Positions 22,315 to 39,184 of a stretch of DNA of 64,000 bases are shown piece after piece. The DNA comes from Acidimicrobiales bacterium. GTDB taxonomy: Bacteria; Actinomycetota; Acidimicrobiia; Acidimicrobiales; SZUA-35. Below the pieces are notes generated by a model. That model was given only the letters and a program-made list of their open reading frames with translations, was not told the origin of the DNA and did not search any database. The first letter of the stretch is position 1, and each line of letters starts with the position of its first letter. The position numbers and the translations under genes are program-made. The stretch covers positions 1-64,000 of the forward strand of contig JAHDCV010000006.1 in NCBI GenBank assembly GCA_020629695.1, in the 5' to 3' direction.

Positions 22315-23339
22315 GTCGGCCGATCGCCGCGCTGGCCCTCGCACTGCTCGCTGCGGCGTGTTCGTCGGTCGGTGACACCGTGACGGTCGCGGTGACCACG
22401 ACGGTTCCGTCGACGAGCGACCCGTCGCCGACGACGATCGAGACCACACCCCCGACGACCGCCGCGACCGTCCAGACGACGTCGTCGTCGTCGCCGCCGT
22501 CCACCACCACCACAACCGCCCCACCGCCGGAGCCGGACGAGCGATCGCTCCCCACCGACGCGACGTCGTTCGCCACCGAGATCTCCGACGTCGAACTCGA
22601 ACTCCGCGATCCCGCCGTCGCCGACGCCGCTCGGCTCGCGGCGCTCGGCCGCCGCCAGCAGCAGCTCTACCGGTTGCTCACGACACACCCCGAGTGGTTC
22701 GACGACGCCGCCGGAACGGTGGATCCGGCCGTGCTCCCGGCCGTCACCGCCAACTGGGAGGCCCGCCGCCAACTGTCCGCCCACGTGTCCTCCGGCACCC
22801 TCGCCACGACCGTGCCGGCATGGCGCATCGTCGAACCGCTCCCCATGGACGAGCTGCTCGGCTACTACGGGGAGGCCGAGGCGGCGACCGGTGTGCCGTG
22901 GCACGTGCTCGCGGCCATCAACCTCGTCGAGACCCGGTTGGGTCGGATCGAGGGACTGTCGACCGCGGGCGCGGTCGGGCCGATGCAATTCCTCCCGTCC
23001 ACCTGGGACTGGTGTTGCGAGGGTGACCCGACCGACCCTCGGGAGGCCATCCTCGGCGCGGCGACCTACCTGACGATCAGCGGGGCAGCCGACGACCTGC
23101 CGAGCGCCGTCTTCGCCTACAACCGCTCACAGCGTTACGTCGATGCCGTGCTCGCCTACTCGTCGGTGATGGCGGAGAACGAACTCGCGTTCCGCGGGTA
23201 TCACGCCTGGGACGTCTACTACCTCTCGGCGGCCGGGCTGCTCCGATTGGAGCCCGGCTATCTCGAGGCCGAACCCGTCGATGCCGCGGCGTGGGTACGA
23301 GCCCATCCGGATGCGCTCGTCGGCCTCGTCGATCCCTGA
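22311..23339 (+). CDS. lytic murein transglycosylase-like lipoprotein
   Basis: 342 aa. A lipoprotein signal (ALALLAAACS) is followed by a Thr/Ser/Pro-rich wall-spanning linker (residues about 20-80) and a helical region. The catalytic domain (about 180-290) has LAAINLVETRLGRI with the presumed catalytic Glu, AGAVGPMQFLPSTWDW and AVFAYNRSQRYVDAVLAY, typical of SLT/MltB-type goose-lysozyme folds. It should cleave peptidoglycan glycan strands outside the membrane. It overlaps the sigma gene by 4 bases, so three genes form one coupled operon. Confidence 0.88.
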   Translation: MSRPIAALALALLAAACSSVGDTVTVAVTTTVPSTSDPSPTTIETTPPTTAATVQTTSSSSPPSTTTTTAPPPEPDERSLPTDATSFATEISDVELELRDPAVADAARLAALGRRQQQLYRLLTTHPEWFDDAAGTVDPAVLPAVTANWEARRQLSAHVSSGTLATTVPAWRIVEPLPMDELLGYYGEAEAATGVPWHVLAAINLVETRLGRIEGLSTAGAVGPMQFLPSTWDWCCEGDPTDPREAILGAATYLTISGAADDLPSAVFAYNRSQRYVDAVLAYSSVMAENELAFRGYHAWDVYYLSAAGLLRLEPGYLEAEPVDAAAWVRAHPDALVGLVDP

Positions 23340-36032: not shown

Positions 36033-36220
36033 GCCTCGAGATCTCGCCCGTTCCGAGCGACGAGGAGGCGGCGGCGATCGCCGCCGCGCTGGTGGTCGGA
36101 TGGCCGACGGTCGCCGCCGAGGTCGAGGCCGGCGTTCGACGCCCGCCGGCCTGGCGCTTCGCCGGGCGCTGGTGGGGCGGTCCCGTCGCCGTCGAGCGCG
36201 CCCGCCCCTGGCGACGGTGA
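36029..36220 (+). CDS. acyl-CoA carboxylase epsilon-like subunit
   Basis: 63 aa from the GTG at 36029, overlapping the beta-subunit stop. It has a short acidic N-terminus (EISPVPSDEEAAAIAAAL) with a following helix, then WRFAGRWWGGP. The acidic-helix plus Trp/Arg-rich end, the size and the position right after the beta gene match the epsilon subunits (AccE/PccE) that stimulate actinobacterial acyl-CoA carboxylases. Sequence similarity in this family is weak, so position carries much of the evidence. Confidence 0.75.
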   Translation: MSLEISPVPSDEEAAAIAAALVVGWPTVAAEVEAGVRRPPAWRFAGRWWGGPVAVERARPWRR

Positions 36221-36564
36221 TCGCACGACGCGTCGCGGCGGTGGCCCTGCTCGCCCTGCTCGCCGGATGTGCGACTCAGGAAGAACTCACGATCGAGACC
36301 GTGGCGTCCGGAGACTTCCGACTCACCGTCGGTGTGCGTCACCTGGTGTGCGACTCCGAACCGATCCTCCAGGCCCGCGAGGTCGACGGTGCGATCGAAC
36401 TCCGTGCCCGGCGCGCCACGAACCGTTGCGGGACCGAACAGCGACTCACCGAGTTCGAGCTCGACTTCTCCGAGCCGCTGCCCGGGCGACAGATCATCAT
36501 CACCCAACCCGCAGGCGTCACCGTCTGCCCCGTCGCCGAGCTCGTCACCGTCACCTGCAACTGA
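36217..36564 (+). CDS. small lipoprotein coupled to acyl-CoA carboxylase genes
   Basis: 115 aa from the GTG at 36217, overlapping the epsilon gene stop (GTGA). A short signal peptide with the lipobox LAGC leads into an all-beta-looking domain with four further Cys (LVCDSE, RCGTEQR, VCPVAE, VTCN), enough for two disulfides outside the membrane. No family is recognised. Coupled translation to a carboxylase operon is unusual for an exported protein. Confidence 0.7.
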   Translation: MIARRVAAVALLALLAGCATQEELTIETVASGDFRLTVGVRHLVCDSEPILQAREVDGAIELRARRATNRCGTEQRLTEFELDFSEPLPGRQIIITQPAGVTVCPVAELVTVTCN

Positions 36565-36572
36565 CCCGCCCC

Positions 36573-36633
36573 CGAAATCCCAGGCCCAGCCGACAGGTTT
36601 TGTCGCTGTCGCCATGCAATTCCAGCAAGCGCG
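36573..36633 (+). repeat. left copy of ~61-bp inverted repeat flanking the APH-methyltransferase cassette
   Basis: Aligns without gaps to the complement of 38295-38355, with about 47 of 61 positions identical. Shared blocks include TCCCAGGC, CGACAGGT and TGCAATTCC, and AGCGCG. It contains a CGACA-GGTTT-TGTCG hairpin. It lies between the lipoprotein stop and the methyltransferase stop. Confidence 0.75.
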
Positions 36634-36639
36634 GGATGA

Positions 36640-37383
36640 TCAGGCCGGTTTCCGCCATGTCGAGACGTGGCTGGCGCTGTCGGCGGTGAACGTCGACCCG
36701 CTCCAGTCCCCCCAGCGATGCTCGAGTTCGAGCCCGGCGATCCGAGCCATCAGGTCGTACTCCGCCGGCCAGGCGTAGCGGTGGGTGGAGGCGAAGGTGC
36801 GGGCACGACCCCCGTCGACCCAGGTGTGGTGGGACGTCAGCGTCTGGTTGACGAAGTCGTACTCGTCGATTCCGGTGTGGTCGCCCGTGGCGTCGAACAC
36901 CGCATGCCGTTCGCCCGGCATGACGCGGCGGATCTGCGGGATGTGGACCTCGATCAGGAAACGCCCGCCAGGGCCGAGATGGTCGGCGGCGTTCCGGAAG
37001 CAGCGCACCTGGGCGTCTTGGGTGAGCAGGTTCGTGATCGTGTTGAAGACCAGGTAGACGAGTCCGAACTCACCTTCGACCCGGACCGATGCCATGTCGC
37101 CGAGCACCACCGGCAGATCGGCTCCGCCGGGTTTGGCCCGCAGCTCCGCGAGCATCCCGGGTGAGTACTCGATGCCGTGCACCTCGGCACCGGTCTCGGC
37201 GAACGGCAGGCCGATCCGTCCGGTCCCGATCGCGAACTCGAGGACGGGTCGGTGGTCGGCCAGTCGTCGGAGGCAGGCGACGGTCTCGGCGACTTCCGCC
37301 GTTCGCCCGTGGCCGCGCAGGCTCGCGTCGTAGTGCCGTGCGCCTTCGTCCCAGGTCTCGACGGGTTGCAGATGGTCGGTCAT
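36640..37383 (-). CDS. class I SAM-dependent methyltransferase
   Basis: 247 aa from the ATG at 37383. Motif I is VLEFAIGTGRIGLPFAETG near residue 47, motif II VHGIEYSPGMLAELR, motif III VLGDMASV near 92, then LVYLVFNTITNLLTQDAQ and GGRFLIEVHIP. The VETWDEGARHYDASLRG lead-in is typical of this small-molecule branch. The gene is coupled by a 4-base overlap to the upstream phosphotransferase gene, and the pair lies between inverted repeats. Confidence 0.85.
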   Translation of the reverse strand: MTDHLQPVETWDEGARHYDASLRGHGRTAEVAETVACLRRLADHRPVLEFAIGTGRIGLPFAETGAEVHGIEYSPGMLAELRAKPGGADLPVVLGDMASVRVEGEFGLVYLVFNTITNLLTQDAQVRCFRNAADHLGPGGRFLIEVHIPQIRRVMPGERHAVFDATGDHTGIDEYDFVNQTLTSHHTWVDGGRARTFASTHRYAWPAEYDLMARIAGLELEHRWGDWSGSTFTADSASHVSTWRKPA

Positions 37384-38267
37384 CGCTCCTCCAGCAGGGT
37401 TCGCCGACACCACTCGTCGAGCTCGGGCTCCTCATCGCCGACCCAGCTCCAGTACCCGGCCAGCCATCGCTCCATCGCCGGCAATGCCCCCAGGAGTCCT
37501 CGCCGACGGAGCCAGTCGTCGACGACCGGGTGATCGGTGGGTGCGAGCGCCCCGCGGAGGGTGTCGATCCGGAAGTACGCCGCGGTGGCCAGTGCATCGA
37601 GCCGGCGGTCGGCGATGGCGGTGGTCGGGCCGAAGTCGAGGATGGCCGTGACCGCGGTGCCGGAGGACAGCACATTCGGTGCACATCCATCGAGGTGGCA
37701 CAGCCCGACGGGCCCGTCCGTCGGAAGGCCGTCGGTGAGTGCCGCAGGGTCCACGCTCGCGAAGTCGGGGTCCGCACGCTCGAGACTCCGCGCCACCCGT
37801 TCGACGAGCCAACTGCTCGTCGCGGTGGTGTGGTGAACGAAGGGTCCGATGATGTCCCCGACGACACCGACGCCGGCGGGGTGCGCCGAACGGACGTCCG
37901 GCAGTGCCTCGAAGGCGTCGAGCACGCCGACGATCAGGCGGTCGCGGTCCGGCCGGTCGAGTGAAGGAAGGACCTCCTGGACGGGTCGACCCGGAAGTCG
38001 GCGTTCGACGGCGAGGTGGCGTGTTGCGACGGTGTGGACCTCCAGCGTCTCCGGCAGCGCGAATCGGACGGCTCGACGGTCGAATGTCGTGAGGAGCTCG
38101 ACGCGCTCGTGGAGTGACTCGAGGGATGATCCGGCGTGGGCGATCCGGAGGACGAGGTCGTCCCCGAGGGGGTAGACCGTGGCCTCCCCACCGGAGCCGA
38201 GTGGCTCGGCCGTCACTCCGAAGTGCGCGAGTGCCGCGCGGAGGCCGGCGTCGTCAGAGCGAGTCAC
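37380..38267 (-). CDS. aminoglycoside phosphotransferase (APH)-family kinase
   Basis: 295 aa from GTG. The eukaryotic-protein-kinase-like fold is marked by the N-lobe GSGGEATVYPLGDDLVLRI, catalytic loop LCHLDGCAPNVL near residue 196 (HxDxxxxN) and ILDFGPT near 213 (metal-binding DFG equivalent). It may phosphorylate a small molecule or an antibiotic; resistance is not demonstrated. First gene of the two-gene cassette with the overlapping methyltransferase. Confidence 0.85.
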   Translation of the reverse strand: MTRSDDAGLRAALAHFGVTAEPLGSGGEATVYPLGDDLVLRIAHAGSSLESLHERVELLTTFDRRAVRFALPETLEVHTVATRHLAVERRLPGRPVQEVLPSLDRPDRDRLIVGVLDAFEALPDVRSAHPAGVGVVGDIIGPFVHHTTATSSWLVERVARSLERADPDFASVDPAALTDGLPTDGPVGLCHLDGCAPNVLSSGTAVTAILDFGPTTAIADRRLDALATAAYFRIDTLRGALAPTDHPVVDDWLRRRGLLGALPAMERWLAGYWSWVGDEEPELDEWCRRTLLEER

Positions 38268-38294
38268 GTGCCGCAGCCTCGCAGATCGCGAGCA

Positions 38295-38355
38295 CGCGCT
38301 CGCCGGAATTGCAGGCCCGGAGCGGCAGGACCTGTCGCCTCAGCCTGGGAATTCG
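38295..38355 (-). repeat. right copy of ~61-bp inverted repeat
   Basis: The complement matches 36573-36633 (about 77% identity, no gaps), so the two copies face inward around the APH-methyltransferase pair. It contains an imperfect hairpin GCGACAGG/CCTGCCGC. It fills the gap between the GGDEF-like gene stop and the APH start. Confidence 0.75.
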
Positions 38356-39120
38356 CTAGTCGCCCATGACGGCGGCGACTTCGATGCGGTCCTGGCGCCA
38401 CTCGCGGGCAGACGAGAGCGCCTGGTCGGCGGCGGTCATGATCTCCTCGGAGGAGAACGCATGTGCCGGGTAGCACGCGATGCCGGCCCACATGGTCGTG
38501 CCGGTCGACTGTTCGGTCATGGCCCGGCGGATCCGCTCGACGGTCCAGATGGCACCGTTCTCGGGAGTGTCCTCGAGCAGGAGCGCGAAGTAGCCGTTGC
38601 GGAGACGGCACGCCGTGTCGGCTTCTCGCAGGGTCTCGGTGATCGAGGTGGCGACGATGTGGGCGTCCGCGTCCTGGACCTGATCACCGGGCAGGCCGGT
38701 GACGACTTCGAGCAGGACCACGGCCACGGGCCGGAGGTGGCGACGGGCGGCAGCGAGGCGGGAGTCGAGGGCGACGTGGAAGAAGCCTTCGGAGAACAGC
38801 CCGGTCTGGACGTCGGTGAGCGTGTCGTCCCCGGCGTCGATCTCGGCGACCTCGTACTCGACCTCGATGTCGCGGCGTAGCTGTTCGCGGGCTTCGGCGG
38901 CTTCGGAGCGCACGGTCCGCAGCTCACCTTCGACGAGCTTCTGCAGGGCGGCCTGTTCGTCGAGGCGCTGGGCGAGGCGCACTCCGGCAACACCTGCGGC
39001 GAGCGCGAGCACACCGGCGACGGCGCCGAAGATCTGCTCACCCATGAACGCCGCGAGCAGACCCGCAGCGAGTCCGAGGAAGCCGGTCACCAGGCCGGGC
39101 AGGGCAGCACGTCCACTCAT
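38356..39120 (-). CDS. membrane protein with degenerate GGDEF domain
   Basis: 254 aa from the ATG at 39120. Two hydrophobic helices (residues about 6-20 and 26-42) are followed by a coiled-coil helix (about 45-85) and a GGDEF-fold domain. The domain shows TDVQTGLFSEGFFHVALDSRLAAARRHLRPVAVVLLEV, then RNGYFALLLEDT where the GG(D/E)EF loop should be, and WAGIACYPAH-EEIMTAADQAL at the end. Loss of the GG(D/E)EF residues argues against diguanylate cyclase activity. It may be a c-di-GMP- or nucleotide-sensing pseudo-enzyme. Confidence 0.8.
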   Translation of the reverse strand: MSGRAALPGLVTGFLGLAAGLLAAFMGEQIFGAVAGVLALAAGVAGVRLAQRLDEQAALQKLVEGELRTVRSEAAEAREQLRRDIEVEYEVAEIDAGDDTLTDVQTGLFSEGFFHVALDSRLAAARRHLRPVAVVLLEVVTGLPGDQVQDADAHIVATSITETLREADTACRLRNGYFALLLEDTPENGAIWTVERIRRAMTEQSTGTTMWAGIACYPAHAFSSEEIMTAADQALSSAREWRQDRIEVAAVMGD

Positions 39121-39184
39121 CGGTTCTCCATCGGCACCGGGTCGAAGAAGATGAACCATCTGGGCATGACGACCACCGTATTCG

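Follow-up and report, generated by a model that had tools for sequence, protein, structure and literature searches.

Inward-facing copies of a dispersed, probably genus-restricted REP-like palindromic element flank a kinase-methyltransferase gene pair in an Acidimicrobiales bacterium

The kinase-methyltransferase locus and its flanking repeats

The window analyzed here is the whole 64,000-nucleotide stretch that opens contig JAHDCV010000006.1 of the Acidimicrobiales assembly GCA_020629695.1. Within it, a class I SAM-dependent methyltransferase gene (36640..37383, minus strand; Pfam Methyltransf_25, 1.8e-12) and an APH-family kinase gene (37380..38267, minus strand; Pfam PF01636, 4.1e-15) lie between two genes of other kinds. 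On the left is a short lipoprotein-like gene call (36217..36564, plus strand), for which Pfam and NCBIfam searches returned no family match. On the right is a GGDEF (diguanylate cyclase-type) gene (38356..39159, minus strand; PF00990, 3.3e-14), which keeps its synteny with MCM-like and carboxylase genes throughout the family. The kinase and methyltransferase genes share four nucleotides (ATGA at 37380-37383), and because of this overlap the two are likely coupled, as the sequence-only reading of the region had supposed. Both fell under every NCBIfam cut-off. In a plasmid search the kinase had no matches, and the methyltransferase produced only stretches of about 66-70% identity from Rhizobium, Streptomyces and others.

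The pair is bordered by two 61-nucleotide repeats. The left copy (36573-36633, plus strand) starts 8 nt past the stop of the lipoprotein-like gene, and the right copy (38295-38355, minus strand) starts directly behind the stop codon of the GGDEF gene, each in the sense of its upstream gene. At 77% complementarity, these arms constitute the top inverted pair of a repeat search whose runner-up measured only 30 nt. A recount confirmed the ungapped match of 47 of 61 positions first reported, and the shared words named at that time are present in both arms. The same words at window positions 22984 and 23205 lie inside coding sequence; these were set aside as chance occurrences, not further copies.

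A dispersed palindromic family behind stop codons

A BLAST search with the right copy revealed full-length relatives elsewhere in the source genome (G000; 4.17 Mb in 121 contigs). A covariance model built from ten copies and applied at a cut-off of E<=0.01 located 31 copies in this genome, 13 in the sister species (G001, the only other genome of the genus compared) and none in 29 further members of the family and order; of the 31, the ten founders match the model by construction and the other 21 do not. A second search, by pattern, recovered 17 copies in the source genome and 11 in the sister, with zero matches for its reversed control and none in 59 other relatives. Among about 85,000 genomes scanned, the sister MAG alone (JAHDBV01, Acidimicrobiales MAG-119) gave matches with the right length; seven others, with differing spacings and from unrelated taxa, were judged to be chance. 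Three viral contigs (L181, L182 and L183) carry one two-box pattern match each, which may also be chance. Neither element matches any Rfam covariance model, even at E<=5.

In the repeating unit, an imperfect hairpin of 38 nt is framed by a 5' box (CRAAATCCC) and a 3' box (GSAAYTCCRGCAAGC), the outer boxes being more conserved than the hairpin. Among 41 aligned copies, 13 of the 17 pairs joining columns 8-24 to 28-45 have changed on both sides, and double-change cells number 106, compared with a mean of 57 in shuffles (0/500) and at most 47 when the pairing is slid. The hairpin potential originally ascribed to each repeat is thus well supported for the family and modest in the two window copies themselves (z of -0.2 and +0.9). 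Folding energies do not favor the sense strand, the complementary strand being the more stable in most copies; therefore, a DNA-level structure is as plausible as an RNA-level one, and a role confined to RNA finds no support in strand asymmetry. A second small hairpin (GCRAGC..GCTYGC) follows directly on the 3' side, for example at window 38280-38305 (minus strand); it was left out of the unit because it is visible in only about one third of the copies.

Placement relative to genes, derived from codon-usage-model gene calls and with the two window copies included, is markedly uneven. In the source genome, 22 of 30 copies start no more than 3 nt ahead of, and no more than 13 nt past, the end of a same-orientation stop codon, a criterion satisfied by 0.8% of random strand-specific sites, and 9 of the 13 copies in the sister genome also lie near a sense stop codon. 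Some copies are antisense between genes. The neighboring genes, where identified, are unrelated (bipA, dnaE, a LysR regulator and a glycerol-phosphate oxidase-like gene). This sense-after-stop placement by itself accounts for the inward orientation at 36573-38355, where one copy comes after the stop of the lipoprotein-like gene on the left and the other after that of the GGDEF gene on the right. It also implies that the element is probably transcribed within 3' untranslated regions. In two copies, e.g., L029 and L022, a separate terminator-like hairpin lies 3' of the element, which is therefore probably transcribed there.

The same placement, at 0-13 nt behind stop codons, would fit the proposal that the hairpins are simply vertically inherited transcription terminators of the genus, which would explain both their post-stop location and their inward orientation; hairpin covariation and the occurrence of several sites in both species point the same way. 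However, the U-tract is absent, sequence-conserved boxes lie outside the stem, and many orthologous gene ends lack the element. In addition, the downstream hairpins at L029 and L022 provide some copies with a terminator-like structure of their own, one copy lies in frame within a gene, and others are antisense between genes, so that we regard a terminator function as improbable. The presence of many copies at unrelated gene ends argues instead for the dispersed regulatory or REP-like element that the sequence-only reading had offered as one of its options. The two repeats are probably independent copies of one palindromic element, about 61 nt long, which is dispersed and confined to the genus.

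Comparison with the sister species and the inward-facing pairs

Gene order in the sister species is identical, running from carboxylase through lipoprotein (60% identity), methyltransferase (88%) and kinase (70%) to GGDEF (91%). There, about 24 nt separate the lipoprotein and methyltransferase stops and the left element is absent, while the right one is present in degenerate form. Absence of the putative cassette from this site, proposed as a check in close strains, is thus not seen in the sister, which keeps the gene pair without the left repeat. In two genomes of a neighboring genus, the GGDEF and carboxylase genes converge at a distance of 0.2-0.3 kb and the gene pair is absent; the pair was therefore gained or lost at the genus level.

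The element itself also comes and goes alone. One copy (G000:C75:24440-24500; L133:3441-3501) sits in frame inside an HrpA-type helicase gene, as part of an insertion of about 90 nt, or about 30 residues, that is missing from the sister and from eight other genomes; this insertion is a gain in the source genome. The second small hairpin seems to belong to it. For about ten more copies, the orthologous stop in the sister is not followed by a counterpart, a difference that in most cases would reflect either gain in the source genome or loss in the sister; a degenerate remnant is likely at L003, one of the sites compared. Several element sites are common to both species. Many copies without a cassette, together with genes fixed in relatives, had been named beforehand as the outcome that would reduce the repeats to a dispersed family, and this is essentially what was found, with one sister genome as the comparison. 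That the element is dispersed, and does not form cassette ends, is a conclusion we hold with considerable confidence. The 61-nt unit would move or be copied by itself, mostly to sense sites just behind stops, and the methyltransferase and kinase would be ordinary genes that were gained or kept at this intergenic position and that two copies now flank.

Inward-facing pairs closer than about 2 kb recur in the source genome: five are clear (C25, C77, C80, C89 and C51) and a further one is weak (C30), against well under one expected from an estimate assuming independent placement, and no outward-facing pair was seen within about 2 kb. Counterparts of the pairs at C77, C80 and C89 exist in the sister. 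Partner copies are no more similar to each other than random copies, which sets them apart from the matched ends of typical transposons. The spacing is 13-126 nt at C51 and C89 and 0.3-2 kb in the other pairs. Two pairs enclose other genes. In one (L120:3922-4569, L146:4708-5346), a gene with a sub-threshold MTES_1575 restriction-endonuclease-like match lies in this genus between bipA and dnaE, which are adjacent in G002. In another (L121:3335-5197), an ABC transporter gene pair is enclosed; in G007, related genes flank the glycerol-phosphate oxidase-like gene on its opposite side.

These pairs bear on the idea of a non-autonomous mobile cassette, in which inward copies would serve as transposon ends and a transposase acting in trans would move the gene pair. 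Besides the absence of outward-facing pairs, three inward pairs enclose genes that are missing or relocated in the examined relatives of other genera, and the kinase and methyltransferase genes are missing between GGDEF and carboxylase in the two genomes of the neighboring genus. Nevertheless, the majority of copies are single, the sister retains the genes without the left repeat, the unit inserts alone, as in the helicase gene, partners are unmatched, no target duplication was recognized, and the sense-after-stop rule already yields the orientation at 36573-38355. The small mobile or rearranged cassette initially suggested is consequently unsupported, and we consider its trans-mobilized version very unlikely; the excess of inward pairs keeps a weak form of the idea alive. 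REP dimers are arranged in opposite orientation with spacers mostly of 20-100 bp, and DNA inserted between their partners has been described (PMC3733652). The simplest reading of the pairs would be dimers of this kind, with DNA inserted between the partners. That two GC-rich intergenic stretches resemble each other by mere chance, a reading with nothing beyond a GC content of 69% to recommend it, is practically out of the question, since 47 of 61 matches exceed the best of 41 (mean 33.7) among 129 random inverted comparisons of 400x400 nt in the window, BLAST with one copy returns an 84% match at E 3e-12 plus others, and the existence of a copy family already refutes it.

Comparison of the dispersed element between the two species also revealed a difference in its center. 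In most sister copies the hairpin core departs from the type found in the source genome. Eight orthologous gene ends were compared, each preceded by 600 nt with 79-93% identity between the two species; there, box identity ranges from 0.63 (a copy cut by Ns) to 0.96 and core identity from 0.18 to 0.50; mean core identity between subfamilies is 0.35. The core is the same at one shared site (0.88) and degenerate at the GGDEF site (0.47). Different cores between similar outer boxes can be seen in L139/L144, L126/L149, L120/L146, L121/L150 and L123/L148. At least one copy in the source genome (C30:77486-77546; L126:8487-8547) carries the core of the sister type, and both core subfamilies thus occur within the genus. 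These alignments suggest that cores have been exchanged in place between the species.

Relation to known repeats and biological significance

REP families often exceed 100 copies per genome, and their associated RAYT transposases belong to Y1_Tnp (PF01797). The element is a REP in the broad sense, being a dispersed palindromic repeat located mostly outside genes. Like REPs and BIMEs, it comprises short intergenic palindromes, single or in inverted pairs, with several subfamilies and with sets that differ by species, located in many cases shortly after stop codons and occasionally inside genes. It differs in lacking the tag and a detected RAYT, in numbering only about 31 copies in the source genome, and in being a 61-nt unit with long conserved boxes outside the stem, whereas REPs measure 20-40 bp. 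Searches of both genomes of the genus, whose assemblies are 97% and 81% complete, yielded no RAYT or IS200-type mobilizer over the cut-off (best score 11.7 bits versus 23). The GTAG and CGTC REP superfamilies are defined by an unpaired tag at one end of the palindrome (PMC3733652); in the alignment of 41 copies neither tag is present, and CRAAATCCC and GSAAYTCCRGCAAGC stand beside the stem instead. Published REP positions (PMC12306157) and dimers (PMC3733652) agree with the pattern of the element, which is REP-type by anatomy and position, yet outside the tagged superfamilies.

Other known systems resemble it in part. Rickettsia palindromic elements, some of which are CGTC REPs (PMC3733652), share the ability to insert a palindromic unit in frame into a protein-coding gene, but the element described here occurs in an unrelated host, mostly outside genes, without the CGTC tag and with a single in-frame case. 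Mobile insertion cassettes, exemplified by the qnrD elements (PMC3913671), and MITEs offer a likeness in carrying transposase-free genes between inverted repeats. In contrast, this unit moves on its own and lacks ends that are inverted versions of one another, paired copies are unmatched, target duplications were not seen, and the genes persist where one repeat is missing. Matched terminal repeats, target duplication and presence or absence of the block as a whole, the marks of a mobile insertion cassette, were not found. Integron attC sites are likewise palindromic, about 60 nt long and directly behind a gene in sense, with a variable middle and conserved ends. However, the copies described here are scattered and not arranged in cassette arrays, and the attC core sites RYYYAAC/GTTRRRY are absent from the conserved ends of the 41 aligned copies.

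In E. coli, REPs located within 15 nt of a stop codon have an effect on translation or mRNA (PMC12306157). By analogy, the hairpin might affect translation termination or mRNA 3'-end processing of the upstream gene, a role that we put forward tentatively and at somewhat less than even odds; it is not independently supported, because folding energies do not favor the sense strand.

A further and bolder possibility is that the element represents an untagged, new palindromic class whose core is exchanged wholesale between species at given gene ends, with the outer boxes left in place. We consider this unlikely. If true, wholesale core replacement would imply copying, for instance by gene conversion or by renewed insertion into older copies, under the action of some enzyme that is not a RAYT and that may also occasionally carry genes between inward-facing copies.

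The present analysis removes a false lead, that of a mobile kinase-methyltransferase cassette. It documents, in a genus of the Acidimicrobiales, a REP-like family that strongly favors positions just behind stop codons, for which no RAYT was detected and whose two subfamilies occupy the same sites in the two species. Such a family offers a test case for how short palindromes spread without the usual transposase.
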